64,000 bases of DNA from Crossaster papposus (Eukaryota; Echinodermata; Asteroidea; Velatida; Solasteridae). The notes below the pieces were generated by a model. That model ran no database searches. It had not been told where the DNA came from and was given only the letters and a program-made list of their open reading frames with translations. Below, piece after piece: positions 14,501 to 53,766 of this stretch; positions within the stretch are counted from its first letter, which is position 1; each line of letters begins with the position of its first letter. Position numbers and translations under genes: made by a program. The stretch covers positions 434,001-498,000 of the forward strand of contig JBAIAA010000024.1 of the NCBI GenBank assembly GCA_037893245.1, in the 5' to 3' direction.

Positions 14501-15234
14501 GGCGATTAGGTGAGGGTTTCATTTTTATTTCCAGTCATGTTCGAGGGTCTGGGGCTCTTACAGAAAAATCCACATTGTCTTACATTGATCTAAAACCAAA
14601 CAATTATGTGAGAGTCCGTTTGTTTGCATCTGACACGGCAGCTATATATATCTTTTTGCCTTGCCTGCCTATATGTACATCCGTTCGTAAAGCAATTGTC
14701 TTTGACCCAAACTGTGAAGACTCCATGAAACCCGAAATAACGGATACAACTAAGTTGTATGCCTTTCCAGAAAATAAGGCCCGATTATAAATTTCCCTGT
14801 AAATTGTACCAGGTTTAATTAGTGTGCTGGCCAAAAAAAACTAACAATCTCGGCAGAATAGTGATTTTAAATGAACATTTATATACAAACTATTATGATT
14901 GTAGTCTATTTTGCAAATAAAAGATATAATTAAAACAAATAATAGCCTTTTAAACTTGACAATATAATTGCAGCATATCAGTATATATATACGCCGTTTG
15001 TACAAATAATTGTCGACGTAAAAACGTAATGGCGCGGCCGGGAGTCTCAGGTACTTTCCGTGTGTTATATTAAGAACATCAAAATCGCGCAGGAAGTATC
15101 CCTGTACGTACTGTGCATGTACGCCCAGTGTTCGGTCGGCCATACTAAATTCAAATCTTACCTTTGTTGGGGATGAAGAATAACAGCAGAAGGATCGTTA
15201 CCCCGAGAAAACAAACAGCTGGACTTGTTCCCAT
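1..15234 (-). CDS. Receptor gene A: FTP-Ig-Ig-EGFx4-Ig-FN3 ectodomain (Tie-like), 3' part beyond left edge
   Basis: Multi-exon receptor read on the minus strand. Inferred exons (high to low): 15162-15234, 13763-13885, 13253-13342, 12221-12451, 6175-6531, 5397-5660, 5038-5169, 4788-4943, 4037-4201, 3208-3351, 2720-3016, 2222-2539, 1646-1713, 422-665, 1-243 (cut by the window). All junctions are GT/AG and the phases chain (almost all phase 1), giving 968 residues. Order: signal peptide 1-24, fucolectin-type domain 25-172, Ig 173-291, Ig 292-379, four EGF 380-578, Ig 579-677, then three FN3. The Ig-Ig-EGF-Ig-FN3 order and the FCLQDPFGC motif in the second EGF are those of Tie receptors. The cytoplasmic part is not in the window; because its FN3 exons are near-copies of those of the kinase gene at 50323-63746, a kinase is likely. 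The 5.7 kb intron between 12221 and 6531 leaves some chance that the FTP exons belong to a separate gene, but phases agree. Confidence 0.8.
750..1129 (+). mobile_element. TTAA-flanked MITE, family 1, copy 1
   Basis: Terminal inverted repeats AGGTAGTATACACCATT and AATGGTGTATACTACCT with TTAA on both sides (746-749 and 1130-1133). The paralogous site near 63165 lacks the element and has a single TTAA, so this is a bona fide insertion with TTAA target duplication. A 9-bp perfect stem (GCTCTCGCC with GGCGAGAGC, loop GGAC) lies at 914-935. No coding capacity. TTAA targets are used by piggyBac and by Kolobok; the transposase family is not identifiable from the element itself. Other copies: 15909-16205, 32308-32637, 59228-59604. 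Confidence 0.92.
1846..2079. mobile_element. TTAA-flanked MITE, family 2, copy 1
   Basis: Ends CCAGTTCGCGCCGG and CCGGCGCGAACTGG are inverted repeats, flanked by TTAA at 1842-1845 and 2080-2083. The paralogous position near 63878 reads straight through a single TTAA, so the empty site is preserved. Length 234 bp, no coding capacity. The interior is comparatively GC-rich and shared with 8594-8823 and 31291-31526. Confidence 0.92.
2720..3016 (-). CDS. Gene A exon 11: third Ig-like domain
   Basis: Single phase 1-1 exon of 99 codons after the EGF block. It has VTVHCKIVGNPLP as the first-cysteine strand and RLTCKVDGSYL as the second. The phosphatase gene has a clear counterpart at 29012-29278 with FTCNVIGNPLP, the same GNPLP motif, and the same splice phases, ending in DLYG versus DMYG. 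This is the domain that lies between EGF and FN3 in Tie receptors. Confidence 0.87.
3208..5169 (-). CDS. Gene A exons 7-10: four EGF-like domains of Tie type
   Basis: Exons 5038-5169, 4788-4943, 4037-4201 and 3208-3351, each a phase 1-1 cysteine-rich module. The first has WGPSCQNNCPVC then GECICAPGFSGSRC. The second has FCLQDPFGCACAAGYMG, the hallmark of the middle Tie EGF repeat. The third (FGPYCTQICHC) carries a short cysteine insertion (DPSCNVEYCPQYC). The fourth reads YYGEICTQRCNC and ends GYRGLACDQ. The phosphatase gene has five EGF exons in the same position and phase. Vertebrate Tie receptors have three. No catalytic function; these build the rigid ligand-binding head. Confidence 0.88.
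3413..3838. mobile_element. TTAA-flanked inverted-repeat element, family 3
   Basis: Sits in an intron of gene A. Ends TTGTGACCTGTTCCCACG and CGTGGGAACAGGTCACAA are perfect inverted repeats, and the repeat continues inward (AAACACGGACAAAGTCG against CGACTTTGTCCGGGTTT). TTAA flanks both ends (3409-3412, 3839-3842). Length 426 bp, no coding capacity. It is the only copy seen in the window. Confidence 0.85.
5397..6531 (-). CDS. Gene A exons 5-6: two N-terminal Ig-like domains
   Basis: Exon 6175-6531 (119 codons) opens with VDFTCYNPNP and closes its Ig-like fold near GAFYCQINTG; it also has an unusual cysteine-rich stretch (TSCSCIP, LSRFCSCGG). Exon 5397-5660 (88 codons) has the Ig pattern WRWRK, then DGGVYECHAP. 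Both are phase 1-1 exons, so they could be inserted or removed without a frameshift. They correspond in place and phase to the Ig exons 24093-24392 and 24832-25077 of the phosphatase gene, where the second Ig also ends in GVYECHY. In Tie receptors the first two Ig domains bind ligand; that role is inferred here. Confidence 0.83.
7014..7074. repeat. Short inverted repeat (hairpin)
   Basis: GTACCCTCTGGAGAC and GTCTCCGGAGGGTAC pair with one mismatch around a loop of about 30 bases. Function unknown; it may be the remnant of a small foldback element. Confidence 0.6.
7152..7199 (+). repeat. Interstitial telomere-like tract
   Basis: Degenerate runs of GGATTA and GGGTTAGGGTTAG. TTAGGG is the animal telomere repeat; a short internal tract like this is common in introns and need not mean a former chromosome end. 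Confidence 0.6.
8594..8823. mobile_element. TTAA-flanked MITE, family 2, copy 2
   Basis: Ends CCAGTTTGCGCCGG and TGGCGCAAACTGG with TTAA on both sides (8590-8593, 8824-8827). Same family as 1846-2079 and 31291-31526, slightly more diverged at the ends. No coding capacity. Confidence 0.9.
9121..9202 (+). repeat. G-rich tract with quadruplex-type G runs
   Basis: Many runs of four or more G separated by T, AAT or AT, ending in a long G homopolymer. The pattern fits G-quadruplex rules on the plus strand. It may be unstable in replication or sequencing. Confidence 0.7.
10491..10519. repeat. Perfect 12-bp hairpin
   Basis: TGGAGCAATAAA and TTTATTGCTCCA form a perfect stem with a 5-base loop. The arms lie between two direct copies of CCATGGTAAAAT. 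Role unknown. Confidence 0.65.
11720..11832. mobile_element. Small inverted-repeat element (TTTCCAAACCCTAGCTT family)
   Basis: Starts around GGTCGTTTTCCAAACCC and ends around GGGGTTTAAAAAACGG, a loose inverted repeat. The segment at 30036-30146 shares the CAAACCCTAGCTT start, the GGCTTC and TTCA blocks and a GGGTTTGG end. Probably a non-autonomous element; target duplication not clear. Confidence 0.45.
12221..15234 (-). CDS. Gene A exons 1-4: signal peptide and fucolectin/F5-8-type (FTP) lectin domain
   Basis: Exons 15162-15234, 13763-13885, 13253-13342 and 12221-12451. The first encodes a start Met and a hydrophobic signal core (ILLLLFFIP). The next three build a domain recognisable as the eel-fucolectin/tachylectin-4/pentraxin-1 type: a segment with SQSSNIS and ASKAVDND, then QWWRVDLG with LQRITIVN, then a last strand region with ARYVSVDL and LQLAEVRL. 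Family knowledge: such domains usually bind fucose or other glycans with calcium; whether this one does cannot be told. The ATG at 15234 is the start because a signal peptide follows directly and the donor leaves phase 1, matching the next exon. The same exon set, with the same first-exon length of 73 bp, occurs in the broken gene at 44386-48011. Confidence 0.85.
12532..12740. mobile_element. Degenerate GAGCTGCTAAGCAC inverted-repeat element
   Basis: GAGCTGCTAAGCACA near the left end and TGTGCTTAGCAGCTCCATGAA near the right end match the ends of the clearer copies at 22315-22565 and 40133-40382. It lies in an intron of gene A and is the most decayed of the four copies. Confidence 0.6.
13619..13745. 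repeat. Low-complexity tract beside an FTP exon
   Basis: AACC, ACAA and CCCCAACA simple repeats with a run of C. It ends about 20 bp from the donor of exon 13763-13885, so it lies directly in the intron start of gene A. Confidence 0.8.
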
Positions 15235-19044: not shown

Positions 19045-19277
19045 CCCCGTCCCACCACTAGCCGACACAGATTTACGTCACTAAATTGCAGTTGCTGGTT
19101 AGAAGTTTTTTGAGCCCGACATTTGGCTACGAAAGTAGTCGTATATATTGATTACCTGGCCCTTTTGAAATTAAATTGTATGCTCTATTTTAATGTGTCC
19201 ACTAATTCTTTCTGTTTGTATTTGCAGCGGATTGAAGAGCTGTATATATTATAGTGACGGTAAAGTATCATATCGAG

Positions 19278-23575: not shown

Positions 23576-25077
23576 ATGACTGCTATGCCTGTGTTGATGC
23601 GTCTGTTCGGGCTACTAGTACTATCGTTATCTATGGTCTCCTACGTAACAGGTTGGTAAATCTCATGTTTTGTTCATTATGTTTTGGATGATTTGCTTCA
23701 CCGGGAATCATGGATTGCGTGTTGTTGTTTTTCTGAAAAGAAGAGTGTTTGTTTAATAATAGGCCTACGTTTCTGCGTATACATGTACCATCGTTTATCA
23801 TCGCGGATTCACGTCCGCGACCATGTGCACATTTTGTAACCACACGTACATCAATCCATACTTGCGTTTACACACTGGCTTGTAAAGTCCAATTCTATAT
23901 CTTCACTTTAAGGTTTTTAGTTGGTAATTCATCGTGTACGAGGAGGTCGGATATGCCCATCACATGATGAAGTGTTATCGTTTAGGCCTACTTCACAGAA
24001 TATTTATCACAGACAACGATTCAAGTTTCACATTTGTATTTAAAATAAAAATTTCCCACATATACAATTATTTGACTGATCTTTCACTTCAGGGGACGAA
24101 GTGCCCGTTTACATGACGGTGGTATATCAACCGCTGGGCAATAACAAGTATAACTGCTATCTCAGTACGCCCGATACAAATGCTGCAGTGACCTACGGAC
24201 GTTATGTGAGAACACGAACATTTGATTACCAAAATATGGACCCGAGGGGCGCCTCGCCGATTAGCCGTCTGGGATCCATTCAAGTATATCTTCAATACGA
24301 TTACAATAACTACTTCGGGATTTATTTCTGTCAAGCGAGGAAGCCTGGGCGACTTCTGACGACGATAACCGCTACTGTTTTGCTCTACAATGGTAAGTCA
24401 AGTTTGTTTTTTTAAGATTTAAGAAAGCAAAGCTGAGAAAAAAGATTAAACGCTAGACAACGCATTAGAAGAAGATACTTTATTTTAAGTAACAGTCAGG
24501 AAAGAAACAAAATCCTTGGAAGGCTAATGATTATCTATGAAAAATGTCCGTAACATTAACATTTTTGGTCAAAAGTTGTGCAGCGCGGTACCACCCTTCT
24601 ACCATATTTTTGTTACGGTCGGACTGTATACATAAATTACATAGTAATAATAGTATTCAATAAGAAAAGATATTTCTTACTTTTGACCGTAAAAAATACG
24701 GTTTCTCAGTAAATACAAATACAACCAACCATAGGTTAATTGGCACATAGCTGCACGACTCGACCGTAAATTTTACGGGATTATTTGTTAACGATGTATG
24801 ACTTTAATCAAAATAGCGAAAATCGTCCCAGCGGACGGACTATACACCAAGACAGTCAACGCGGGCGACACCGGCGTGTCGATTGAGATGACCGGTCTCG
24901 TAGCATCAACCAACGAATTCGCCTGGAGGTTCAACAACTCGGGCATCTTGTCAACGGGATCGCGGACCTTTGGTATCGAAGGAGCGGTTTCTCAGAGCCA
25001 CGCGGGGGTATACGAGTGTCATTACAATACGGAAAGGGGTTTCGCGAGACAGGGGCTTGTCCGACTTATAGTCCGAG
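23576..25077 (+). CDS. Gene C exons 1-3: signal peptide and Ig domains 1-2
   Basis: The start is ATG 23576, followed by a signal core LFGLLVLSLSMVSYV and a phase 1 donor at 23651. Ig1 (24093-24392, residues 26-125) has YNCYLSTP and FGIYFCQAR. Ig2 (24832-25077, residues 126-207) has FAWRF and GVYECHYN and ends RLIVRG, as the second Ig of gene A ends RVIVRG. Unlike gene A, no FTP domain stands between signal and Ig1. Confidence 0.9.
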
Positions 25078-28000
25078 GTACGTTCGAAGGAAAGAATTCT
25101 CTATCATCAGAAAGCAATAACATTTCCTAAAAATAAATTTGCTCCAAAAATATCGAAGCTTTTTACTGAGACCAGTCCCATAGAGGCCTGTGGTTTGTGC
25201 ACGGGGTGTGAAGTGATGTCTAGGAGGAATAGAACTCGGCTTGAAATAAAAATGGTTATCTGAAATGACGGCAGATAATGTTTTGAGTGATGCCCGATCG
25301 TACCTTTAAATAATTATGATGGTCCAGTCTCCATATATATCTTTTGATAGCCTCCATTTTCGGCTGAAATAGGTTGCCCTGCGAGTCGATGGGGCCCAGC
25401 CGACTGCACGGGAATCTGTGATAACTGCTACAACGGCGGCATCTGCAATGACCTGAATGGTCGGTGTTTGTGTCCGGCTGGTTTCAGCGGAAGGAACTGC
25501 TTGGAGGGTAAAACAAATAAATGATACAACTTTGTAATCGGTGACTTTAATTCGGGTCTGTTTTCATTTTTGTTAACAAGCATATTCTAGACATCGTCAA
25601 TTTGTTGATTTCAATTGTAGATTATCAGTTTTCTTGTCATATATACATGTACGTTGATTTTAGATAAAGGGACAAAGTATTTGTATACAATTATGTTCAA
25701 ATAATTATGTCAACTAGTTGCTCATGTACCTTTTAATGGCATTTAATTGCATTGTTTACTTCTTGGAATGCTTGTTTATATGCTAATAATTATGTTGTTT
25801 TCACATAATTATGCTGTAAAATTGCAACTACCGTTGCGACACTTTGTTTTAGCTTGTGGAGATAATCGATTTGGCTTCAGTTGCGAGATACAATGCTCCA
25901 GCACTGCTAACTGTCGCGGTCTGGTATTCTGCCTTCCTGATCCGCTGGGCTGCAGGTGTAATGCAGGGTACACAAACTATGACTGCCTTACAGGTTAGAG
26001 ATCAGTGGTTAGCCCCAATATTCTAACTTGAATCGGATATTTGTAATCGATTAAATAAGATAGTCAATAAAGTTAAATTAAGGTTAAGGTTTAACTTAGT
26101 CATACGTGGAAAACGTTTGAGCGAACAACGATGCTAGTGAAACAACGTTTAAATGTTGCTGTACCGAGGTTACACTGATAACTATCTTGTTACTTAAATT
26201 CCTTGGAGGTCATGACACGCCACTAGTTCAACAGAAACCAAATTAATGTCCATATGTAATTTAGGAAACTAAGTGTTGACACCTTGATTCATCGGCGTAA
26301 GAGTTGAATTTGTAGGGGGTCACCCGGGGTGAACCAATTTGTCTAAAGTGGGCACTGAAGGCAAGTGATATATTGTTTGGATTCCGTCTTCATTCTCATT
26401 TCGATCGATTGTAGTTTCCAGCTAAAATCCTGTGAAATATTTTCCTCTCAATTTTAGCATGCCCTGGCGGAACTTTTGGCGCCAGTTGCCTGCAGGAATG
26501 CCATTGTCGTCAGGGGGAGGGATGCGATAGTTTTACCGGGGAGTGCAGCAGGGGTTGTGCCACGGGTTGGGCGGGTCAGTCGTGTCAGAGTAAGTTATAC
26601 AATAGTAATACCATGGAGGTAGGAAACAAATTGTTCATTTTTGCCTTGCTCATTGGAAATTGAGCAGTGTATATAATTACTCCATTGACAATATTCATTC
26701 TGTTGATGAAATTGGGATGGTAACAAACTCCACCCCAACCCACCCCACCTAAACAAAAGGTTGTAGACCAGGGCCACTTTCATGGAGCTGCTAAGCACAA
26801 AAACCTCGCTTAGCACAAAAGGTCTTGCTTAATAAAAACAGGTTATCAGCCAAAACCTACGTGCTTTTCATGCTAAGCAAAAGGCAGCTCAATACTAGTC
26901 ACAAACAATACATCACCTGACAATTTGGTTTGTAACCCTGTTTTTGATCGCCAAGAAAGAATTTTCATGCTAAGCAATTCTGTTTGTGCTTAATTAGCAG
27001 CTTGATGAAATTAACCCCATATATCTAGGAGTAAGAATGTTTTGGTTTTTCTGTGGGTTTTTTTTTTAACAAATAATTAAGCGTTTGGAATGTAAGACGG
27101 AATTGCCAGATTGTTGCAAAAATTTGTCGAAATAAGCTTTTGGACTGTCTCTATACAATTTATAATTTTTTTTTACGATAGTTCCAGATGTTTGCGGAGG
27201 TGACTTCTACGGTGTAGACTGCACGGAGAAGTGTCAATGTTTGGAAGACAGACCCTGTGATAGACAGACAGGGAGATGTCCCAACAGTCAATGCAAGCCT
27301 GGCTTCACCGTCTACCCAGGGGGATTCCATTGTCAAGGTGAGGTCAGCTGAGGTCATTCGATTAATGGAAACCTTTTAATGGAACGACATTTTGCCCCGC
27401 CCCTGCTTTGGAACCACCATTATCATGCACAAATGATTTCTTATTTATTGAGAATGTATTTGTAGTTTAGGCTCTTGGTAGGCGACTGCATTAATGCGTG
27501 CATCGGATATAACAGAGGAAAAAAAAGCTTTGGCCCAAAGTTTATTAAAATGACCCAAATCAATTCACAATTTACATTTCTTCTCGGCAGACCAACAAAA
27601 AAGCAAAGTGTGTTTTGATTTATCGTGGTTACTTCCTTATAAAACGGAAATCCATGAACTCACCGCGATCTATTGAAACGCTAACTAGCCTGTGACATCG
27701 CAGGTCCGGATGTGAGTTCACAAGGGGTCATTGGAATTCCAGAAAGGCAAATTATTCCTTGTGAAAATGCTAAAATTGTTATTTTATTTACGAGAAATAG
27801 TACTTTTTGGAGACATTCGCATAGACTTGTGCACATACAAGATCGGAACTTTAACCTGCACCTAACCTTGTAAATTTGAGTTTATTGATAACTCTAGGAA
27901 TCTATTTCGACTCATTTGTGGTGTCGAAAGTATGTCCAGACTTGAAACGAGGGGGAGACATTAATTTCTATCTTGTCCCCCAATAAGGTACGACAGTTTT

Positions 28001-31000
28001 ATGGAAAGTTTGTCTATAATACATAATGAACCATCCATTGCAAGAATTATGACAATTTAATTGTTTCATTGTACTTATTATTAACTGTTGCCCTTTTTGA
28101 TGCGGGATATCAAGAAATTTAAGTTCAAGTCACTTTCGTTTTCACCAGACTAAACTAAACTAGTTTGCATGCAAAAGCGTGACATTTTCAAGGTTTTAAG
28201 TGGTTTTTTTCCATTGGTACTAACTTGTTCAATTCGATACAAGCCTTCATCTTTCACTTTCAGAAGATTGAGAAGAATAAGCTTGGTTTCTAGCTTCACT
28301 TGACATAAACTGCTGGGTTATGAACCTAAAAATGATTTGAATAAAATATAGTTTTCTATTCTATCACGGTGTTGCAATATTTCAGCAACCACAATTAACA
28401 TAGCCATCATAGTGGGAGCTTTCATTTTCACTTCTTACCGGTGAAATGTATTTGTTCTGGCTGTCTCTGACAATTATAAATAAGTCAGTTTTTCCTCCAA
28501 AATATGCACCGATCACACTTGTTTAAAAGTTATTTTATTGCGGAGCGAATTAAGGTTCATAATATTTTTTCTTTCATTTTTTTCTCTCAGAGTGTCGAGA
28601 TGGCACGTACGGTCTTAACTGCGCTGATATTTGCCGCTGTGACGAGACTTACTGCGTGAAGTCTTCAGGAGTCTGCGACGGAGGTTGCAAACCCAACTGG
28701 GCCGAGCAAGACTGCTCAACAGGTCAGGGGTCAGAGGTCAATCACCTGCAAATCCAATACATGCATGTACTTTCTTGAAAATATTTAACCTTTTCAGCCA
28801 CAATAGACTGTGGGCCAGACATCTTATCTCGTCTGAAATATGAAGTCAGTTCATGATTTTTAGTGGCAACCTGGAAGTGTTTGTACTTTGTCGATTCGAG
28901 GGTGCTGAATTCGAATCTGTCTGTTACCAGGTTTCTAGGTTGCAGGTTTAGGCAATCTTTTGAGAATTCGTCTCATTCTTTATTTTATATTTTGTTCAAT
29001 TAATGCCCCAGGTATAGTTAGTTTCACCAATACTAAAGCGAATAGCGGACAGTCGTCGACGTTCACGTGTAATGTGATTGGGAATCCGCTGCCTGTAACG
29101 GCTGCAGTCAAAGTCTACAGATCTTCCAACGGCGGCCAGCACGAGTCCGAATCCAGCAACGTGATTGGCTCGGAGCGCGTGCTCACGTTCGTACTCGAGT
29201 CTGTGGAGTTGGGCGAAGAGTTTATTTGTTACATCGTGGAACCGTATGCTCAACTGCATTACACTGCAGATATGTACGGTGAGTCTATTGTATTAATGCG
29301 ATTGTACACTGTCCGCAGTTGCCTTATCGTGTTTGTGCACAAGCAAAGAAGGCACTATGCAGTTGAGCAATGAGACCTTCAAGACACTACTTAAGATTTT
29401 GCTAGTTCACGCAAGAGTGTTCAATCATTATAAAGGTCTTTCAACAAAGTCATAAGAAGGCTATGGATTCTTATAAACGTACTTCTTACAATAATAGTTG
29501 AAGGTATTAATTTTCTTTTGTCTTGGGAACCCAGAATTACCCGTCTTGATCAGAAAGCCTCGTGCCCTGCAGATAGACGCTCGTGCGGTGACCATCGGAT
29601 GGGATGTATGGAACCCTGACGTCGGTGACGTAGGAGACCCGCCCATCACGGCGTACACCGTATTCTACCGGCCAGATGATGGTGATTCCCATCAGTGGCA
29701 AAGGGGCACCACGGTTCCCGTGACGGGTAACAGTCCGACAGCGACTGTTAGCGAGTTGGTACCTGACACTGCCTACAAACTGGGCGTGGCTGTTAGCAGG
29801 GAAGGAGTGGGCGGTGAGGGAGCGATGGGTCCTAGACTGTCTGTGACAACACCCTGCGGTGGTATGTTATTTACGGGAAAAGTAGTGCTGTATACATGAT
29901 CAACGCGTCATATTTACAAGTCGGGGACAAGTCGCAAACCTTCGCAAGTCAATCACAAGTCAGTCCCAAACCGTCCCAAGCCATCATAAGTCACGGTGTT
30001 CGTTTTATCATAGTTCTTTCGCTTTCAGGTGTAATCTAAACCGTTTTTCTCAAACCCTAGCTTCGTCTCCGCCTTTGGCTTCGTTCATGCAGTTTGGCAA
30101 TGGTGATGGAGCCGGAGACAGAGCCTAAGCTTGGGTTTGGAAAAATATCGAATTCAAATTAAACGAAGGGGAATATTACTGTCGATGCTTTTATAATTGC
30201 TTAGGACGATTTTGGAGGTACAAACCGGTTCTTCTCCTTTGTATGTACCCAGAACCTCTGAAGCCGCCTAATGATGTGAACGCTTCCAGCAAACAACCAA
30301 TAAAAAGACAGATCACAGTTAGCTGGCAGGTGGGTAAATGTTAGCTTGGAAATAATTGGTACTCAAGCAAGGAGTAACACAAGTATCATTAAATTTTATT
30401 TTTTGTCTGTTATTGATGATTACCATACCTGACATGGTACTGTTATTACGCAAAAAGTTGGCCAAGGAAATGTGAAGATGTTAAAACTGTTTTGTATCAC
30501 TTCAATAATTCGATGCAAACTGTGGGTAATAAAATAGTCAAATTTTTTTGTGTCCCTGTTGGAGCTTATAAGACTCTAAATGTACATCGAAGACACATTC
30601 TTTGATGCCTTCTATATCTAAGATGAAGGTAAACAAAACATACAGAAAATAGTTCCAAATGAATTTAAATTATACTTTTGTTGTAAATTACACAGGTAAG
30701 GTGTAAAAGGGACGCACACAAAACAACCTGTCACGTACCCTTTTCGATCTTTCAAACTTTAGGGTTTGCAGGCCGATTGGCAAGGATGCAGCACTGGTAT
30801 CACGCAGTACCGTATCCGCTATACACCTGACATCGACGTGGAAACCAGCGTAACTACGGATACCATAGACTACAATGTCACGGCTGTAAATCTTACCGGT
30901 CTGGAACCCTACCTCCGCTACGCCGTTTCAGTCAGCGCCGTCAACGAAATCGGCGGCGGTCCCTGGAGTGACGCGATAACGGCGTACACGCCGGAGGAGG

Positions 31001-34000
31001 TGCCCCCTCCCCCTAGCACGGTCACGGTTCTACGCAGCAACATGAGCTCGATCACGGTGCAATCTGAGGCAGCATCGCCACGCAATCTGAACGGGAACGT
31101 CAGGCACTACTTCATCCAGTACGGCCGAGCCACCGAGGGCGCCCTAACAGAAGCAAAAGTCATGCGCGTCAACCAGACAGGCTACAAAATGACGTACACG
31201 ATTACGGGTCTGCCCAGTTTGACGGATTACACCATAAGGGTAAATCCCCCTTTTCAACAAAAATGTTTAGACGATAAATAAACTATTTAACCAGTTCGCG
31301 CCGGGATTATTTTAATATCACCGAGTCGAGGGGCGGTATTATTTTTAACGAAACTCGATCCGAAGCGTGTTCAGGCCGATAGTGCCAAGAAGCGTACACC
31401 CACGCATTTCCGGCCTTGCTCGCTGCTGACAGACATTTTCGAACTTGAACTTGGCGTGTTTATGCGTCATCCGTTTTGAATTTGGGGAAAACTTTGCCTT
31501 TATATACGTCATCCGGCGCGAACTGGTTAAAAGATAACCAAAATATATAATGCACATCGAATGTTTTCAGAGGACATATTCACGTTATTTATGAAGACAA
31601 ATAAATAAGGAGAAATTATACAATCTCATTAGTTGATTTCATTGTTGAGCGATTGATGACGAGAATTTGAAAACTTATCAGCAAATTTGAGCTCAGGTTT
31701 GTAAATTTGAATATCAAAATGAAACTTAATGACGTCTCTTTTTATTTGTTTAACCTAAAAAAGGTGAAAATTGTCAACGGCGTTGGGGAGAGTGGTTGGA
31801 GCGAAGCTGCTAAGGCGACAACGATAGAAACAGGTGATTGCAGTAGATTGAAATGCCTCAGTCACGAAGGCAGCTGCGGCGTTCCATACATATAATCGTC
31901 AACATCTTTTGCTTATTCCATCATATCAAGTGAATTCATCTTTTCTATACAGGTGATACGGGCAACCAAACGGGCAGTGGTGGGAGTGTAGCCGGGGGAA
32001 TTTTGGGCACTTTGTTCATCGGCATTATCATCGCTCTCACGATTGTTCTAGTGAGACGAAGGTAAGTTCAAGACGGCTTTCTCACTCAGAATACTGCCAT
32101 TGGTAGATGATAAGAACGCCCCTTTCTAGGTGACTAGAATAAACTGATTTGTTATATATTTATTTTCGGCCCGTGAGTTGAGCAGCACACTGCTAGAAGG
32201 TGACAGATTTCGCTTCTCTAATCATAGTGAAAACCTTCTGTACAGGCTCATCAAAGTGAAAAAAGTTGATCATTTTGTGGTTTGTAGTTCATCTTCAGGC
32301 AGTTTAAAGCTAGGATACACCATTGGTTATTGCTTGAATTATTAGAAATGGGTGGATTTGGGAGGTTGCATTTTATAGTAAATATCATTTAACTGACCTT
32401 TCCAAAGTTTTACAGTCATGAAAGCCGAGAAAAGCACGAAAAACAACATTTGTTTTTAATCGCCGGACGGCGATTGCGAATTTTGTTCGCAATTCTATTT
32501 TTCGAAATAATTACAGGATATCTAGCTCAATCATTTTGCTGGATGCCTAAAATCAATATTTACTTTCCAATAGTTAGATTTTTTCTAATAATTCGGTAGT
32601 AAATGTTTTCGATATCTGCAAATGGTGTATCCTACCTTTGGGTCTTCGCAATGGCGATTTACCACCGGGCAATTTTGTTGTGTGTTTTTATGTCTACAGA
32701 AGACGTAAAGACGTTTTTTGGAAGCCGCGAAGCGACAATGCTGCACCCGTACACAAAAACAACGCGTTTGACAGTAACATCGTCGACAGTGCAGGTATAC
32801 AAACAATTTAATTCAAGTTTATGAGGCGAGATGCCTCATCTCAAACCCACGAGGGAAGCAGACATAAAGATCCCCAGTAGTTACTTTCGTTTTGTAAACG
32901 AAAGGAAATGACAACAAAGACAAGAAGTCGATGATAAACTGAGAGGAAACCGCAACAAAACCAACATTTGAACAAATCCTGCGGTCGCAAAATGTATACA
33001 GGGAAGTTCGTCTTTATTCTGTCCCCAAGTTCCCCCTTTTCCTTTCCCTTTCACTTTCACCTCCAGCTTTTAAAATACCTCTGAAATTCAAGAATGTGTT
33101 ATTATTTATATTTTTCTATTTGACAATTGATAAACGTAACATTGACTGGTCTGACGTCTACAGACCAAGGAACCGACAAGGATCTGATTTCGGCCGGTGG
33201 GACGTCAGAAGAGACGAAAAAAACTGCTGGTAATGACGCTACCATCTATGAAAATGCTGGTAAATGTTATATAACAATTAGATTAGTTGAAGATTAATAC
33301 AAATGGAATGCTTGATTCTGCGGCCACAGATTGTAAAAAAAAGTTAGAAATGTTATTTATGGCTGACTGGTCTTTCTGACTAGTACCCACTTTTCTTAAT
33401 CAATTTACCTTTTGGACTATTTTGATTGAAAAGGAAAAAGATACCGGGGACTGGGCAATCAGTACTTTGTAGTCTACTTTTAAGAGCAGAACCGGCAATG
33501 AATACTAAGAAACCCTTCGCTGTCGTATTGAAAAAGACTTTCTTTAAACAAATAATGAACCTTTGATATCTACCTCGACAGGCCTGGCGCCCGATCAATC
33601 GCCGAAGCCGACATCGGTTGCTAGGTCGTCCAAAATAATCCGAATTCCCCCGAAACCCAACCACAAGCCGCCTCACCCTTTGAGCCTCGACCCGGAGAGT
33701 CTACCACTTGGCTTGCTGCAGCTATTCGCTGGAATTACACGACCGGCAGACCGCATTAACTCCGAACCTTCAGAAAAAACAGCACAAGGAGAGGAGCACA
33801 AACGGCCTTCAGAACCAGAGGCAACTAAAGAGTCACCAGACCAAGAGTCGACACCGACACAGCCACGACCGACGACGACAACTGACGAGGAGTGTGCATA
33901 CGGAAACATCAACCTTGGTCCGAAGCTTCGCAGGCCCATTCCTGTAGCTCAACTCGACGATTACATCCTGAAGAAGAAAGATAGCACGACGGATAGTCTG

Positions 34001-37000
34001 AAATATGAATTCTCAGTAAGACTATCAGAAACAGAAGCGATAACTGTTTGGACGTACTTAAACGATTAATGGTGGATTTACAAATGTCGATTAAATGCAA
34101 ATAACTGACAATGATTGCTTTTAGCTGAATAGTTGATGACTTTTTGTTCTTCAAAAATTATTTCGTTTTAATTTAGCTTCTTCCAGCAGACCAAACCAAA
34201 CCTTGGACCGTAGCCTCCAATCCAGACCTTAAGACGCGGAACCGTTTCAAGAACATCATTCCATGTAAGTCAAAGTCTGTAACTAATTAGGTATAAAAAA
34301 AAAGAACAGCCTGCTCCAAACAAGAGTCTAATTTGTTACATTTTGAAAAGTAACCGCTGTGGTTAATTGATTTTTTATTTGATGATGCAATTCTAGATGA
34401 CGAGTCGAGAGTTCCGCTAGAAGCTATTGAGGGCGTGCCGTTATCGCACTACTACAACGCCAGTTACGTACAGGTAAACGCAATTTTAATGTCGACCAAT
34501 TAATTAGCAATTCTGAACTGAATTAATTAGCAATGGCATATTCCCTTTGTTGTTAAATTGAGATGATTCGTATGTTGCAGTAGATGTTACCAAAAAGGTA
34601 CGGGTAAAACGAAGTAACTTTGCCACCCAGGGTTTTTTTTGGCAACTTTTTCCAATAATTGTTATTTCATGTTTTTACTTGTATTTTTTTAAATTTTTAT
34701 TTATCTCAATGATTAAGAAAGAGTTGACAAATAATATCAAACGGGATCTTTTGTAATATGTTATAAATCTCACAAAAAGTGCTTCTGTAAACTATCTGAA
34801 CCAAGTTGCCCCAAAGTAAACTTAAAGTTACCCCGTTTTACGATAACATTTTATTTCTACCCTTATTAGAGGGTGTTTAAAAAAGATATGCAGGAAATGT
34901 CGTAAGAAAACTAGACTAGACGAGTGTAGCAGCCCCAAGCAATCATGAATTATTCATGCTCATGAATATTCGAGAATGTGTTACTAAATGTTTATTTTTC
35001 CGACATTTTTTGACAGGATTACAAGCAGAAAAACACCTTCATTGCTGCTATGGGTAAGCTTTTTAAACACCAATATTGTTATCTGTTAAAAATTTCAATT
35101 TTTTTTTTTATAAAATCGCCAACAAACTATTTTTAATAAACTTATTGCAATTCACGTTCACATTTACATGCATTTTTTTTCTTTCAAGGACCAAACGCGG
35201 CTTCCTTGGATGACTTTTGGAGGCTGATATGGCAAGAGAAACTCAACATCATCGTCATGACAACGCGACTTGTAGAAAGTGGCAAGGTGATCTTCACATC
35301 AGGTCTTCAAAGAAATAGGGAAACATTATCCAAAGTGCGGTCAAATTCAGACGCCTGTTTTTCTCTTGCGATTTAGTTGATTTGTAGCACTTTCTAGAAT
35401 GTAGGTTGATTAATAATTGTTAACCTTAAAAATGTATTGTGGTGTCTTTTTGTTTTCAGGAAAAATGTAAGAGATATTTGCCCACGGAAGTGAACCAGGA
35501 GGAGACATTCGGAAACATTGGAGTCAAACTTCTTGAAGTGGAAGAATTCTCAGATTATACGATCAACACCCTGCAAGTCCACCAGGTATAAGGAATATAT
35601 TTTGTGTTTCTTATTTTGTTTTTGTTGGAAATTAAATCTAATTTGCTCCCTAAAAACCTCAAATTGTTGTTGCATCTAAGTCATTAACATCATTGTTGTT
35701 TCTTAAAGAATAGTTTTAAATATTTTTGCTTAAATCGTTTTTGTTTACTATAACTCTCGGTAAAATCGATAAAACTCTTATTTGACCTCTTAACGTTTTT
35801 TTCCTTGATATATTTTGGTCTTTGCAAAAAAACAATATTATTAATTTACACTGACGCAAGTCTCATCTCTTAAACTTTTTCTTTGAAAAATTCCAGGGCT
35901 CCCATTAATTTCAGGCTGGTCAAATAATTACGACTTCTAATTATTTGGTGGTGTCTTCAAAATTTCTTTTTGCATTTCGACACTTTGATTCTCGTTTAAT
36001 TTTTTTCTTTTCCAAGGCTGACCAGGAGGATATTTGTCACACTATCAAACACTTCAACATGACCACCTGGCCAGATATGGGCGTGCCCCTCTACCCGACC
36101 CCCGTGCTTAGTCTGGTGCGAGCCGTCAGGGACACCCAGTCTCCCATGCTCAGACGCAACAGTGTAGAAGCCGAGAAACCGATACTGGTTCACTGCAGGT
36201 GGGTGGTGTCAAACAAGCGCGTTTCCTAAATCAAGGCTTTGTCATCAGTATCGAGTTCATTCCTGGCAACAGAATCGTTTAAAGGGTTGTCAAAATTACC
36301 ATGCCATGCTTTGGCCTAATGGACATACGATGTTGATAGGTGCCCTGTCATTTAAAGCATCGAGGGTTTTGAAACTGCAACTTCATCAATGTCTTTTTAG
36401 CTCAAGAGCATTAGTCCGAAGCAATACACCAGTGTGTGATATGTAGCCAGGAATCGCGACCACTAGACACGATGTCAGCAACATTAACAATGTACAAAAC
36501 CTGGAGGAAAGTAATCGGGAATTACTCTGACACAAATTTTTGTTTTGTTTTTCGATAACGCAGTGCCGGAGTGGGTCGGACAGGAACATTTATAGCAATC
36601 TACACCTTGATGGACATGATGCTAGAACGAGGTGACGTCAGCGTGTTTAGTTTCGTCAACAATATGAGGGAGAACAGAGTCAATATGGTGCAGACATATG
36701 TAAGTGGTGCAATATGAATATGCAACTTTGCATTCCTTTAATGAGACGCGACAGTTCCAAGACTTTACTACCGCAAGTGTATGGGTTTTACAGGGCAAGT
36801 CGAAAAGAGAGTGACCTTATGAGAAATATTTACGCAAAAAGGTGTAAAAAGGCTACCTTTATGAAGACTTGACGAAAGTTTTTGTTTAAATGAAGAACTG
36901 AATATATGGTTCTTTATTAGAACTCGTCAAAGGTTCTAACTGCAGAACTTGTTTTTCTCAATAAAAAAACTAAACAAGGCTTCCTCCTGGATACTTGGGC

Positions 37001-40000
37001 ATTGGTTCTTAACTGGAGAAAAAATAAGGGATCTGCACAAAGAAACTTGTATTCCATAGTGCAGAACTAAAGGTTTCTCACAGAAGTACAAGATTCCTGA
37101 AGAACTGAACATTATTGGTGATTCGTTCTAGAACAAAAACAAACTTTACTAAATTCAGAATTAAGCATGCCTTCCTTGAAGTAGAACCTGGTTCTTGCAG
37201 AAGTGAACAAGTAGAGTTCCTTGCTAACCCTAATCAGAGCTGCAACTCATGCAGCCACCACCGGAATGATACTCACATTTTGACCTAATACTGTTCACAG
37301 GAGCAGTACGCTTTCATCTACGCGGCTCTGCTGGAGGGGCACCTCAGCGGAGATACCAGAATCCCGCTTAGATATTTTGTCGAGAGATTCCCCAAACTCA
37401 AGAAGATTAATCCAAAGTCTAGAAGACGCTACATCGAGGAAGAATATAAGGTCAGCTCCCAGACATGTATGGAAAAGGCGCTGCTATAACGAACATCATG
37501 AGATCTAAATATTTTGTTCGGTATAGCCGAATGTTTGCTATAGTTGTGTTTGGTATATAGCGGCGTTATATAAACCTCTAACAAGAAGGGAAAACGGCAC
37601 TAGCATCTGTAAACAAAAAGATAGAACATTTGGGAAAGTTTCACAAAGAGTTTTGTTTTTCTCCTTTTGTAATTTTTTACCTTTTATATTAAAAAGTTTG
37701 ATTCCAAAAATCTCAACAGAAAAATCTCTGTCGTGAGTTCTTAATTGTTACCGTTTCATCGATTTTATAATTAATATTCAAACAAAAATAAATTTTTATG
37801 TTTAACGATTTTATTGATTGTGTATAACTGTGTAAACACAAAATTCATCACCCAATGAATTACATAATTTTAGGTTTGCGTTCTTTGTGGTTGTTTTTGG
37901 TCATTGTTTGTTTATTTATTTGTTTGTTTGTTTCCGTAGGCATTGAACCGAATCACCCCACCACCTGAAAAAGAGGCTTATGGAGCGGCTGCCCTCCCAG
38001 AAAATGCCGACAAAAATCGCTTCGAAGAAGTACTTCCTCGTAAGTTGATTGGAAAAATCGTGCAGACCTAAGAAATAAGCCTGACAATACCCAAACACTA
38101 TTCTGTTTTTATTTTTAGTAAACTCTTTGGTTTTATTTTTTTCTGTACCGGTAATTAATAGTGGAGCGCAACCGTCCTAGCTTGACTTACGCGGGAGAGG
38201 GTGCTTCGAGCTACATCAATGCATCGTTAGTTGACGTGAGTAATACGAGTGGCGATTTAAAGATTGCTGGAATTATTTCTCGCAAACTTCATATTCAAAT
38301 ATCGATTAAATACACACCAATACAAACACTAAACTAAAGATACATGCATCTCTAAATAAATACAAATTATCTCTACAAATTAAAAGTACCTCTAACTAAT
38401 TAACGATATTTCTAATTTATAGTCGTGTAAGTAATAATGTTGAATTGGCTCACCATAGATGAATCTCATGAGCCTACGTCATCACCAAGATTCGGTGCAT
38501 TACTAATTATTTAGAGATATTTCTCAACAATATAGATATTTCGAAATAACTCTAAAATAACGCCGCGTAGGTAATAAATGTTATATCGGCTCGAATCATA
38601 TGAGACTAAGTCATCACCACGTTTTGGTGCATAATTTCATTGTCTTAAGTACATTTTTTTAAACAAATTTTCTACCCATACTGAGTCAATTCAATAGCAA
38701 TGTACGCTCTGAGACAAACTTAACAATACATGACTTGTTTTTTATGTTATGTTGACCTGACAGGGTTTTAAGCGCAAGGACGCCTTCATTACGACGCAAA
38801 TGCCCCTACCAAACACCATGACGGACCTGTGGCGTCTGGCATATGACTGGAAATGCCCCACGATCGTGATGATGAACGGGCCTCACACCTTCACCAATGT
38901 AAGTAGGTTCTCTATTATGGTTAGACACCCATGAAAGACTGGTCATTCGAAATTTAAGGCCCAAACATGCATTTTCCGTTCCCGTTATACCTCTGAACAT
39001 TGTAATTTGCTAAATGATTATAGACTATTCTATATTTTGTTATGTAAGACAGGATAACACTTTTTTATCAACTTTATTTTAGTGAGCTTCAAAACATAAA
39101 CTTCACTTGAAACAAATTCTTATTGACTACAGTTTGGTCTTTTATGCTGTTTAGTCATTTATGCAAAATTGAAACGTACGCTTAGAAGAAGAAAGTGAGT
39201 TCCCAAATGGATTTGTATTTCTCAGCACTGGTTCAGACACTCTTTTTCGATTCGTTTTTTTAATTTCATATACATATTTTTTTAATCGTATCAATTATTC
39301 AAAACTAAATTATGCAGGAGCCTGTTCAGTATTGGCCCGATTCGGGTAGCCTGGTCTTTGGGTCTCTGTGTGTGGAGATGATCGAACAGAATAAAAGGCG
39401 AATCTACAACTCAACAACCCTGAAAGTTTCAAAGAGTGACAACTCGAAGGTAAGTCTAGTACCTCTGACCATCAGTATTAATATCGTTCGATTCAAAACG
39501 GGCAAAATTTCACTAGGCCATAATTTTGGATGGAACATAATGATGATGCTTGGATAGAGGGTTTGAATAGTAAAACATGGGTGATTTATTTATTTACGAA
39601 TTCCCGGCTACCTTTAAGGTTCAGCTGGAAAACATTTGACACCTCATTTGGGCAAGGAAATGAGCTTCATAAATATGCATAGTTTGCTACAACATGACGT
39701 GTTGCGGCCGTTGAGATAATTTGATTTTTGGTTTGAAAAGAAAAGGCTTCAAAATGCTTCCATCATTTGAAATGGAGACGAAGCAGAAACGACACCGAGG
39801 TTTGGAAAACCTATTTGTAATTGCAATGTGTTCAACTTCTCATCCCCAGGGTAACACGTTGATCGTGAAGCATTTTCAGCTGAACGGGTGGGAAGGGAAC
39901 GAGGACAAACCCAACTCTCCACAGATCATATTGGACCTGCTGGACGCCGTGAACCAGTGGCAACAGGAGTGCCAGTCAACAGGGCCAACTCTAGTTCAAT

Positions 40001-41083
40001 GCATGTTAGTTTTTCATCGACTTCTTCTTACTATAGTCCAACTGTCCGCGATCTGTAAAAAAAAAATGGCAGGCAACCTTGTCATACTTGAGATGTAATG
40101 ACGTCATGGTTTGTTTACGTTAGCACCTTCCAACAGGGGCCAATTTCATAGAGCTGCTAAGCAAAAAAATTTGCTTAGCACCAAAAATCTTGCTCATTAA
40201 AAACAGGTTATACCAGCCAAATTTCTACGTGTTTTTCATGCTAACCAAAAAAACAGCTGATTATCAATCCAGAACAATAAAGATCAGGTGAAAATTTGGT
40301 CTGGAACCTTGTTTTTGCCAAAGACAAAATGTCATGCTAAGCAAATTTTTGTGCTTAGCAGCTCTATGAAATTGGGCCCTGGAGCTTGGTTGGTCTAGTT
40401 CCCAACTGGCTTCCATTATACGAAAGCGCACATGTAAACAAGGAGCCAAGTTACGTCTGTGACTATCGTATTCGCATACTTTTCACGATTTCACAGAAAG
40501 AGTATGAAAAATCAAGTGCTGTTGGGATGAGGTTTTCTTATCAAAATAGAAACCACAACACAGAATTTCACTGAAAATATGTTGTTCACAAACGAGGCAG
40601 TGTTAGTATCATTACACAAGCCGCAATAAAAAAAACCACTTTAATTATCAAGATTTGTATTGTTCGTCCTTCGATTCAGAAACGGAGTCGGTCGCAGTGG
40701 CGTCTTCTGCGCCGTCTCCAATGTACTTGAGAGGGTGGGCAAGGAAGAGGTGGTTGACGTCTTTCAAGCCGTGAAGAGACTCAGGATGAACAGGCCACAG
40801 ATGATCGAATCTTTGGTGAGTTACTGCATGTACTTTGTTTTTTAAAATGGTTTAATTCCTTGGCATGGACTCTTTTCATTCTTTCTTCCTCTGCTAAATA
40901 CACCACTTTGAACTAGAAGCCATACTTAACTTAAATGGCCCGTCATATTAACAGTTTCTGTTAAACTAACTTTATGGGTTTTATTTTACATTTGTTTCAT
41001 GTCAACAGGAACAGTTCATCCTGTGCTATGAAGTGATCTACCAAAATTTTGAACGCTTCCAGCACTACGACAACCTCCTTTAA
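23576..41083 (+). CDS. Receptor tyrosine phosphatase with Tie-like ectodomain (Ig-Ig-EGFx5-Ig-FN3x3-TM-PTP-PTP)
   Basis: Complete 32-exon model: 23576-23651, 24093-24392, 24832-25077, 25373-25507, 25853-25993, 26458-26589, 27182-27337, 28591-28722, 29012-29278, 29535-29861, 30253-30329, 30763-31239, 31764-31833, 31953-32061, 32700-32794, 33164-33259, 33582-34015, 34177-34264, 34397-34473, 35017-35053, 35189-35286, 35460-35585, 36017-36198, 36564-36699, 37301-37450, 37940-38039, 38162-38235, 38764-38898, 39318-39449, 39850-40004, 40680-40815, 41009-41083. Every junction is GT/AG and in phase; the total, 4971 nt, gives 1656 residues with one stop. The ectodomain follows the Tie order, while the cytoplasmic part is a tandem phosphatase. 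Expected at the plasma membrane, removing phosphate from tyrosines under control of an extracellular ligand (inferred). No vertebrate receptor phosphatase that I know has this ectodomain. Confidence 0.92.
25373..28722 (+). CDS. Gene C exons 4-8: five EGF-like domains
   Basis: Exons 25373-25507, 25853-25993, 26458-26589, 27182-27337 and 28591-28722, residues 208-439, all phase 1-1. EGF1 has CYNGGICNDLNGRCLCPAG. EGF2 has VFCLPDPLGCRCNAGY, the sequence signature of the Tie middle EGF repeat. EGF3 to EGF5 have FGASCLQECHC, FYGVDCTEKCQC and YGLNCADICRC. One more EGF than gene A and two more than vertebrate Tie receptors. Confidence 0.92.
26767..27016. mobile_element. GGGGCC...AGCTGCTAAGCACA inverted-repeat element, copy 3
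   Basis: CAGGGCCACTTTCATGGAGC at the left and GCTTGATGAAATTAACCCC at the right, with GCTAAGCACAAAAA inside. It lies in the intron between EGF3 and EGF4 of gene C. Ends more diverged than at 22315-22565. Confidence 0.75.
29012..29278 (+). CDS. Gene C exon 9: third Ig-like domain
   Basis: Phase 1-1 exon, residues 440-528. FTCNVIGNPLP gives the first cysteine strand and EEFICYIVEP the second. It shares the CxxxGNPLP motif and the final MYG/LYG with gene A exon 2720-3016, so the two are homologous domain for domain. Confidence 0.9.
29535..31833 (+). CDS. Gene C exons 10-13: three FN3 repeats
   Basis: FN3-1 is exon 29535-29861 (VTIGWDVW, SELVPDTAYKLGVAV, then TTPCGG). FN3-2 is split over 30253-30329 (ends ITVSWQ, the same split as in genes A and D) and the first half of 30763-31239 (GLEPYLRYAVSVSAVNEIGG). 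FN3-3 uses the second half of that exon and 31764-31833 (VGESGWSEAAKATT). The 70-bp last exon has the same length and phase as exons 59772-59841 and 56537-56606 of gene D. Residues 529-845. Confidence 0.88.
30036..30146. mobile_element. Small inverted-repeat element, second copy of the CAAACCCTAGCTT family
   Basis: Begins CTCAAACCCTAGCTTCG and ends AAGCTTGGGTTTGGAAAA, in an intron of gene C. Similar to 11720-11832. Target duplication not found. Confidence 0.45.
31291..31526. mobile_element. TTAA-flanked MITE, family 2, copy 3
   Basis: Ends CCAGTTCGCGCCGG and CCGGCGCGAACTGG with TTAA at 31287-31290 and 31527-31530. It starts only about 50 bp after the donor of gene C exon 30763-31239. Confidence 0.93.
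31953..34015 (+). CDS. Gene C exons 14-17: membrane span and tyrosine-bearing juxtamembrane region
   Basis: Exon 31953-32061 has a glycine-rich linker and a membrane span at about residues 858-879 (ILGTLFIGIIIALTIVLV) followed by RRR. Exons 32700-32794, 33164-33259 and 33582-34015 encode a long, polar, proline- and threonine-rich segment. It contains TIYENA (Tyr about 942) and CAYGNI (about 1052), both of the YxN form that binds Grb2-type SH2 domains. The phosphatase could thus be a signalling scaffold as well as an enzyme (inference). A MITE ends about 60 bp before exon 32700-32794. Confidence 0.88.
32308..32637 (-). mobile_element. TTAA-flanked MITE, family 1, copy 3
   Basis: Ends AGCTAGGATACACCATT and AAATGGTGTATCCTACCT. 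TTAA precedes it (32304-32307); the right flank is TTGG, apparently a mutated TTAA. Internal stem AATCGCC with GGCGATT at 32458-32475. Inverted relative to copies 1 and 2. Confidence 0.88.
34177..37450 (+). CDS. Gene C exons 18-25: membrane-proximal phosphatase domain D1 (catalytic)
   Basis: Residues about 1091-1388. Seen: RFKNIIPYDESRV, DDFWRLIWQ, IVMTTRLVESGKEKC, the WPD loop TTWPDMGVP (Asp about 1252), and HCSAGVGRTG formed across the 36198/36564 junction (Cys about 1292, Arg present), then the Q loop MVQTYEQY. These are the residues of an active classical PTP. Two departures: the recognition-loop KNRY tyrosine is Phe (RNRF), and KCxxYWP reads KCKRYLP. The acceptor at 34176 is chosen because the alternative a few bases later runs into a stop. 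Confidence 0.92.
37940..41083 (+). CDS. Gene C exons 26-32: membrane-distal phosphatase domain D2 (probably weak or inactive)
   Basis: Residues about 1389-1656, ending 25 codons into the last exon with TAA at 41081-41083. Seen: SSYINASLVDGF, DLWRLAYDWKC, VQYWPDSG, and the P-loop QCINGVGRSG across the 40004/40680 junction (Cys about 1586). Cys and Arg are kept, but the His before Cys is Gln and the WPD loop is replaced by GWEGNEDK, with no aspartate in the acid position. Like many receptor PTP D2 domains, it is likely regulatory rather than catalytic. The tail is only HYDNLL. Confidence 0.92.
40133..40382. mobile_element. GGGGCC...AGCTGCTAAGCACA inverted-repeat element, copy 4
   Basis: CAGGGGCCAATTTCATAGAG at the left and CTCTATGAAATTGGGCCCTG at the right, about 250 bp. 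It lies in the intron that interrupts the D2 P-loop codons of gene C. Confidence 0.88.
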
Positions 41084-44275: not shown

Positions 44276-44400
44276 TGTGTTGCCCGCAAAGTCAACCAAA
44301 GAGCTTTACATAAAAGATGAAAATTCAACCACAGGTTTGCACTGTGTACGTCCTGAAATCAGTAGATGGCTGTTCTCTGAATTAGAACTCCAACTTAGAT

Positions 44401-53300: not shown

Positions 53301-53766
53301 AAAGGTCTTGAAATAGGTCTTACAACCAGCTGACTACAGCTAGGTGGACGTCTGATGGGACATCTGGTCACGCATCTGTTTAGCACAATGAGCTGGATCT
53401 AGCCCGTTTATTGGCGCTATTGGAGTAATCCTGTATACCAGTTCATAGGTGTGTCGGTTCACAAGTTGAGTGACTGAGTTATTCAGCGAGTCAGTCAGCG
53501 AGTATTTTTGTCCCTGTATCGTCATAATGAGTCGAGTTACCTTTGAGGGTTTTGATGGCTGCTTTGGTGACTTGGTTTCTGATCTTCACGCCTCCTGTTC
53601 GTACCTCGCCAAAGTTACCCTTACCAAGAATCTCATCCTCGACGATCAAATTCTCCCATTTAATTTCCAGTTTCCTCGCCCAGGAGGGAAGCCCTAGATC
53701 CTCGTATATCACGCCCTCAGTGTTGAAAGTTGGTGAGTCTTGTTCGTAGATTGTTGGTTTGGCAAC
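50323..53766 (-). CDS. Gene D kinase domain and C-terminal tail
   Basis: Nine exons. Seen: GKGNFGEV (Gly loop), AAIKTLK (ATP-binding Lys), FNREL (helix C Glu), [16 protein letters not shown] (hinge), HRDLAARN (catalytic loop, tyrosine-kinase form), SDFGLSR (metal-binding DFG), [27 protein letters not shown], and [15 protein letters not shown]. All catalytic residues are present, so it should be active. WLAIESL resembles the WMAIESL of Tie and related kinases, but assignment to a subfamily needs a tree. Before the kinase lie TIYEQ and [11 protein letters not shown]. The tail ends [12 protein letters not shown] and a few more residues; YEN is a Grb2-type site. The last intron holds a 52-bp tandem array. 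Confidence 0.92.

Follow-up and report, generated by a model that had tools for sequence, protein, structure and literature searches.

A putative receptor tyrosine phosphatase with a Tie-type ectodomain in the sea star Crossaster papposus

The window analysed here is a stretch of 64,000 nucleotides from the sea star Crossaster papposus (contig JBAIAA010000024.1, hereafter C24; C24:434001-498000 within a 1.02-Gb assembly). It contains a plus-strand gene of 32 coding exons for a putative receptor protein tyrosine phosphatase (RPTP), together with parts of two further receptor genes on the minus strand (Table 1). A preliminary description of the sequence had proposed a complete, in-phase gene, and the model could be rebuilt by script from the window letters: all 31 introns are GT...AG with consistent phases, and the 4986 bp of coding sequence form one frame with one stop, the terminal one. 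The predicted protein of 1661 residues comprises a signal peptide, two immunoglobulin (Ig) domains, five EGF repeats, a third Ig domain, three fibronectin type III (FN3) domains, a transmembrane (TM) span, a juxtamembrane region and two protein tyrosine phosphatase (PTP) domains, D1 and D2, and has a single signal-like and a single transmembrane segment. Nine ectodomain exons, 2-10, are each of phase 1-1. Profile searches with Pfam recovered Y_phosphatase in two stretches (448.7 bits), where no kinase domain was found, and fn3 in three (102.1 bits). Ig_3 (23.6 bits, cut-off 30) and EGF_2 (17.3 bits, cut-off 22.1) fell below their cut-offs, so the identity of these domains rests on the comparison with Tie2 given below. 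MAM was absent among the 14 families listed at E values up to 10.

Table 1. Features of the phosphatase gene and of its two neighbours, in window coordinates
Feature	Position	Strand	Basis
Whole gene, Tie-ectodomain RPTP, 1661 aa	23576..41083	+	Exon model, Patiria P0001, second copy C39:25087-42292
Exon 1, signal peptide	23576..23651	+	Hydrophobic residues 3-21
Exon 2, first Ig-like domain (weakest)	24093..24392	+	Tie2 alignment starts at residue 82; P0025 model beta-rich
Exon 3, second Ig-like domain	24817..25077	+	Tie2 ectodomain alignment
Exons 4-8, each with one of five EGF-like repeats; VFCLPDPLGC in exon 5	25373..28722	+	
Exon 9, third Ig-like domain	29012..29278	+	Best Ig_3 stretch at 447-494, under the cut-off
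Exons 10-13, three FN3 domains	29535..31833	+	Pfam fn3, three stretches
Exon 14, transmembrane span	31953..32061	+	Residues 866-884; phase 1 entry
Exons 15-17, juxtamembrane region: tyrosines in YENA and YGNI, proline-rich stretch	32700..34015	+	Translation
Exons 18-25, PTP D1 with WPD, HCSAGVGRTG and QTYEQY loop	34177..37450	+	
Exons 26-32, PTP D2 with QCINGVGRSG, without WPD; C-terminal YDNLL	37940..41083	+	
Gene L: F5/8C-Ig-Ig-Tie-EGF-Ig-FN3; PTP-PTP tail beyond the left edge, to C24:about 419.9k	1..15234	-	Orthologue of Patiria P0009
Gene K, 3' half: FN3s, TM, Tie-family tyrosine kinase	50326..58112	-	Orthologue of Patiria P0151

The ectodomain and phosphatase exons appear to belong to one gene, as the preliminary description had it. 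The Patiria protein P0001 is 79% identical to the window protein over 99% of its length and aligns over all 32 exons (43-100% each, with 69% in the TM span and 100% in exon 18). The Acanthaster protein P0002 is also an orthologue, in a model that lacks exon 5 entirely and exon 1 for the most part. We examined further loci of the genome, ten hand-picked from the listed PTP matches (154 reported) and eight others from the same search. One of them, L017, proved to be a second copy of the gene, at C39:25087-42292, in which all 32 exons are found at 91.8-100% identity per exon including flanks; L019, L020 and L023 are nearest to the Patiria RPTPs P0214/P0103 and P0102. The C39 copy is intact, its net indels being multiples of three and its only stop the terminal one. 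Between the two copies the overall dN/dS (Nei-Gojobori) is 0.181, from 71.2 synonymous and 44.8 nonsynonymous changes, with 0.294 for the ectodomain, 0.326 for the TM span and juxtamembrane region, 0.031 for D1 and 0.061 for D2. The value of 0.542 for the Tie core is poorly determined, since only 4.2 synonymous changes fall there. Constraint is strongest in D1, which shows 2 nonsynonymous and 17 synonymous changes. Whether the C39 copy represents the second haplotype or a duplication, both halves of the gene have been kept; on these comparisons the locus looks like one working gene, intact and under selection.

The likeness of the ectodomain and of its EGF motif to Tie receptors, first noticed from the sequence alone, was borne out when the ectodomain was compared with all PDB sequences. 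The top matches were Tie2 chains (human 4k0v, 3.6e-46; 2gy5, 2.7e-43; 9lv4, 2.8e-43), aligned over residues 81/82-349 of the window protein with VFCLPDP-GC common to both, and the next match was a phosphatase FN3 chain at an E value of 1e-16. The best-matched part was the Ig2-EGF1-3 block of Tie and not the FN3 stem, which matches LAR and contactins too. In Tie2 the second Ig domain is the ligand-binding one. We also folded a homologue, the sea cucumber protein P0025 (1087 aa; AlphaFold mean pLDDT 75.7, pTM 0.49). The two best PDB matches of the model were Tie2 ectodomains (4k0v, E 4.0e-37; 2gy5, 8.5e-28), ahead of the PTP domains that made up the other matches among the 50 listed; its TM-scores by target were 0.53 and 0.63, so the domains fit better than the overall pose. 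In the reverse direction, 280 sequences were searched with the core of the Xenopus protein P0183, a Tie-type kinase which clusters with the Spea protein named Tie-1. The window gene scored 127 bits (rank 39 of 218) against at most 75 bits for 19 generic EGF proteins; a few Tie-core rows reached only 62-65 bits, and the ranges touch at their edge. The best non-vertebrate matches of this core were four spider phosphatases (152-159 bits) and one amphioxus phosphatase (151 bits); the highest-scoring non-vertebrate kinase came after them, at 145.5 bits. Both these scores and the core tree described below, where the window protein stands among the Tie-core rows, place the domains with Tie. As judged from sequence comparison, then, the window ectodomain is homologous to that of the Tie receptor kinases.

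The cytoplasmic part had been called a phosphatase from its HCSAGVGRTG and WPD motifs, and the two Y_phosphatase stretches agree with this. D1 carries both motifs together with the Q-loop QTYEQY, so that the classical features of a D1 (catalytic Cys/Arg loop, WPD and Q-loop) are present alongside those of a classical receptor-type PTP (signal peptide, one TM span and cytoplasmic PTP domains). The best PDB match of the tail was the D1-D2 pair of RPTP-alpha (6uzt, 410 bits, E 1.3e-121), followed by epsilon and LAR. When D1 was searched alone, alpha, LAR, T, K and mu scored near-equally, at about 205-229 bits, and the PDB therefore assigns it to no vertebrate subgroup. D2 keeps the C-x5-R signature (QCINGVGRSG) and has GWEGNED at the WPD position; it is predicted to be weak or without activity. 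The C-terminal Y-x-N aligns with the YAN of RPTP-alpha, a tyrosine through which that receptor recruits an SH2 adaptor.

Three protein searches (72 of 72, the best 120 of 293 and the best 120 of 1028 matches) yielded 279 different proteins, isoforms not being collapsed. With a Tie-core hidden Markov model at a threshold of at least 90 bits, the core was detected in 184 of them: 119 with a PTP tail, 27 with a kinase, 4 with a seven-transmembrane (7TM) domain and 34 with no tail detected, some of which may be short models. Among the matches listed, core and PTP occur together in sea stars (22), urchins (23), sea cucumbers (30), the brittle star (4) and the crinoid (4), and hence in all five echinoderm classes. 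The combination is also seen in acorn worms (5), amphioxus (13), chelicerates (11, from scorpion, spiders, horseshoe crab and tick), a pycnogonid (3), a crab (1) and unnamed sources (3). The suggestion of a lineage-specific class thus stood only in part. An echinoderm-specific architecture is ruled out by the same fusion in hemichordates, amphioxus, chelicerates and the pycnogonid, but the narrower PTP clade of the window protein, described below, is echinoderm in all its named rows. No vertebrate protein combining Tie core and PTP was found among the matches listed, and the four named vertebrate core proteins are all kinases. Likewise, none of the 19 vertebrate RPTPs retrieved by tail (among the best 120 of 1028) has a Tie core, and all have MAM in precomputed Pfam annotation, in keeping with the earlier remark that no vertebrate RPTP was known with this ectodomain. 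If a Tie-core RPTP class is defined by the joining of core and PTP tail in a single protein and by conservation across species, the window gene is by its sequence a member. The wider family, as the sequences of these proteins show, spans several phyla, its Tie-type sensor being borne by phosphatase, kinase, adhesion G-protein-coupled or apparently non-catalytic receptors. The 7TM forms are sea cucumber P0036, P0039 and P0044 and amphioxus P0174; in P0036 Pfam confirmed 7tm_2 and a GPS motif.

Phosphatase relationships were drawn from a D1-D2 tree of 143 rows, which supersedes an earlier D1-only tree of 93 rows. It skips 34 proteins with other than two clean domains or with excess length, thins the vertebrate RPTPs to 3 of 19 and lacks the human R1-R5 references. 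The window, Patiria and Acanthaster proteins form a starred group (100) inside a starred clade (99) of 38 rows, in which all 37 named rows, added to the window, are echinoderm (crinoid, sea star, sea cucumber and urchin) and 36 of the 38 have a Tie core. Short models are among the rows labelled 'no core' on this tree, so that switches are overcounted. By simple patterns, whose counts are depressed by partial models, Y-x-N within the last 40 residues is found in 29/38 rows of this clade and the D2 C-x5-R in 24/38.

On a quick tree of the core (144 rows), PTP and kinase rows were interleaved. The PTP label changes 35 times, 22 of them forced by starred branches, and the kinase label 15 times, 10 of them forced. 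In a subset of 39 of the 144 rows, kinases were monophyletic in 0/200 bootstraps. Approximately unbiased (AU) tests gave p values of 1e-59 and 8e-80, the gaps in likelihood being very large. As these 39 rows were chosen after the tree was known, we place weight on the bootstrap and on pair identities and not on the AU tests. Eleven phosphatase-kinase pairs were compared through their ectodomains. Identity was 89.2% over 908 columns for Amphiura P0091/P0150, 82.4% over 524 columns for Amphiura P0014/P0048, and 80.7% over 865 columns for Patiria P0111 (PTP) and P0171 (kinase), which are unrelated after the ectodomain. Amphioxus P0088/P0160 reached 75% over 1371 and 74% over 827 columns, and amphioxus P0107/P0152 69.3% over 1194 columns; the remaining pairs ranged from about 41% to 64%. 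Between the catalytic tails of the compared pairs no match was listed at E values up to 1e-5. In P0111/P0171 and P0107/P0152 each protein has one signal-like and one TM segment, and identity stops at the TM span. P0048 and P0150 have sister kinase tails (starred, 100, in a tree of 28 rows with 2 left out), while their ectodomains pair with different phosphatases. Furthermore, PF23144, a membrane-proximal family named for PTPRU, was found in three of eight Tie-type kinases scanned, the sea star proteins P0127, P0151 and P0170 (36.4, 27.1 and 29.9 bits; cut-off 24.7), and not in sea star P0046 and P0171, urchin P0169 or vertebrate P0173 and P0183, which hints that some sea star kinase tails have been placed under phosphatase-type stems. 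Overall, tails and ectodomains look to have been reassorted, by tail exchange or by ectodomain gene conversion; the pairs are gene models from databases and lie in clusters, so some may be wrongly joined. It is conceivable, though we would put it at somewhat under even chances, that in echinoderms and amphioxus kinase and phosphatase tails were repeatedly swapped beneath a common Tie-type ectodomain, so that pairs of receptors arose which read one cue with opposite output, like the activating and inhibitory pairs of the immune system. On the same reading, phosphatases may have carried the Tie ectodomain for as long as kinases have, vertebrates having kept only the kinase branch, with VE-PTP replacing the lost phosphatase.

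Receptors with differing tails lie side by side both in the window region and on C39. Gene L, adjoining the phosphatase gene, is a second Tie-core phosphatase. Gene K has a kinase tail, and its TM exon, read by eye, is entered in phase 1, as in the window phosphatase gene. The kinase of its Patiria orthologue P0151 scored 286 bits with human Tie2, the best per single domain, and 239 with FGFR1; an EGFR construct with two kinase copies totalled 325 bits, about 161 for each copy. Patiria P0046 and P0151 lie on a contig equal in size to that of P0001 and P0009. To the right of the second copy, C39:48095-57143 (plus strand) holds a Tie-core receptor with a TM span, in which a catalytic tail was not seen; it resembles P0158, named 'tenascin-like' in Patiria. 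Minus-strand exons at 73.7k-50.3k in window coordinates, partly outside the window, would join an L-type ectodomain to a kinase at an in-frame junction (58487/58112). This apparent hybrid is a probable assembly artefact: window coordinates 59237-75307 are 100.000% identical over 16071 bp to C39:1-16071, the ectodomain half of another gene L copy, whereas other long matches between C24 and C39 show 89-98% identity, and the hybrid is without first exons. We therefore dropped it and kept the kinase half of gene K. In its longer matches the hybrid is 93-98% identical in DNA to gene L, up to about 58421. A C-type lectin domain (PF00059, 43 bits) lies in an exon-like minus-strand frame at 43757-44305, beside F5/8C and FN3 exons at 46.5-44.9k, and an intronless plus-strand frame of 266 aa with a hydrophobic C-terminus lies at 19278-20078, with no Pfam match at E values up to 0.01. 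Tandem arrays occupy 50383-51062 (52-bp unit, 13.1 copies, between the last two gene K exons) and 18891-19049 (12-bp unit, 13.3 copies). No tandem repeat bearing on the window gene was seen, and ARAGORN found no tRNA genes.

With a kinase-tailed relative in the same window, we consider it probable that the product, a single-pass, Tie-headed receptor tyrosine phosphatase, serves as an opposing partner of Tie-type kinases, and we infer its mode of action as follows. The Ig2/EGF head would recognise ligands of the kind bound by Tie-type kinases, or would pack beside these kinases through the FN3 stem. The active D1 would thereby come close to the kinase tail and to other substrates at the junction and dephosphorylate them, while D2, lacking the WPD loop, might regulate D1 or hold substrate and the C-terminal Y-x-N tyrosine might recruit an SH2 adaptor. 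One animal would thus possess go and stop receptors reading related cues through a shared ectodomain, a job that in vertebrates is done by Tie2 and the unrelated VE-PTP. The echinoderm kinase SpTie1/2 has been reported in coelomocytes and the axial organ (PMC12113024).

Several observations weigh against this proposal. The first Ig domain is the weakest assignment, with poor profile support (no Pfam best stretch is listed for residues 26-125), and there the P0025 model is at least beta-rich. No kinase was found with an ectodomain close to that of the window gene, its nearest rows in the core tree being phosphatases and one tail-less protein, so that a shared ligand would be a matter of family and not of near-identity. 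Nor are the D1 motifs universal in the clade, where the same simple patterns find WPD or WTD in 26/38 rows, HC-x5-R in 32/38 and the Q-loop in 20/38.

A rather unlikely alternative, but the one that survives best, is a homophilic or matrix-adhesion RPTP, a sensor of cell contact like the type IIB or LAR receptors, in which the Tie likeness is no more than a trace of common descent and neither ligand nor partner is shared. The vertebrate matches to the tail of the Patiria orthologue are of PTPRM type, at 39-40% (among the best 120 of 1028), the FN3 stem has the LAR and contactin matches given above, and the relatives include the 34 of 184 Tie-core proteins without a detected tail. The lack of MAM and the preference of the ectodomain for the Ig2-EGF1-3 block over the stem speak against it. 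Very improbable, to our mind, is a catalytically idle decoy or scaffold competing with Tie-type kinases for ligand: several clade members lack the D1 motifs by pattern, and some relatives have no detected tail or a single PTP hit, but the window D1 has every motif and is the part most strongly held by selection. Least credible of all is a fusion by annotation of two adjoining genes, a Tie-like receptor and an RPTP with no joint transcript; the model was built from genomic sequence alone, Tie-type genes are clustered so that models can fuse, and the assembly has one doubtful join in the L/K hybrid, yet the C39 copy has the same 32 exons in order, the Patiria alignment runs through every exon including TM and juxtamembrane, and the whole protein has one frame with one signal-like and one TM segment.

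Opposing partnership with Tie-type kinases thus remains the reading we prefer. RPTPs are classed by their ectodomains, and no vertebrate Tie-headed one is among the matches listed. In the titles and abstract beginnings of the literature searched we found no description of a Tie-headed RPTP; Byrum et al. (2006), to whom two divergent sea urchin R3 phosphatases without vertebrate orthologue are credited (PMC5336234), might list a relative. The sequences are already public under automatic names, and as far as that search extends the class is undescribed. Recognition of a Tie-headed class would correct automatic labels like 'PTP kappa-like' and 'angiopoietin-1 receptor-like', by which the connection is obscured in public databases. 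It seems that animals have coupled a single type of sensor to two outputs of opposite sign, and Tie-headed RPTPs would offer a natural case of one sensor on opposite enzymes. A class extending over several phyla would also allow a direct test of the origin of the angiopoietin-Tie system, because among the 280 sequences searched spider and amphioxus phosphatases are the closest non-vertebrate matches to a vertebrate Tie-type core.

Among known receptors, VE-PTP (PTPRB, R3) is the phosphatase that restrains Tie2 (PMC5146956), and the likeness to the window protein lies only in the proposed working, a phosphatase opposing a Tie-type kinase, with no shared Tie head; R3 ectodomains consist of fibronectin repeats and are followed by a single PTP domain (PMC5336234). 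RPTP-alpha and epsilon (R4) give the best tandem PTP match and share the aligned C-terminal Y-x-N, but the window gene has an Ig/EGF/FN3 ectodomain and its D2 is without WPD. R4 ectodomains are short, without Ig, EGF or FN3 domains. PTPRM/K/T/U (R2B) resemble it in an Ig and FN3 ectodomain with tandem PTP, their tails being the vertebrate ones among the best 120 of 1028, and relatives bear the database names 'kappa-like', 'mu-like' and 'T-like'; the window gene differs in having Tie EGFs and no MAM. R2A receptors (LAR-type) have three N-terminal Ig domains followed by FN3 repeats and no EGF, whereas five EGF exons lie between Ig2 and Ig3 here. With Tie1/Tie2 (TEK) the window protein shares the Ig2-EGF1-3 block, the EGF2 motif FCLPDP-GC, the third Ig, three FN3 domains and one TM span. 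Tie2 has three EGF repeats, in contrast to the five EGF exons here, and a kinase where the window gene has PTP-PTP; with two Y_phosphatase stretches and no kinase domain found, the window gene is not a Tie kinase. SpTie1/2 and the other echinoderm Tie-type kinases, Patiria P0046 and P0151 among them, have the Tie core in common with it, and their tail is a kinase.

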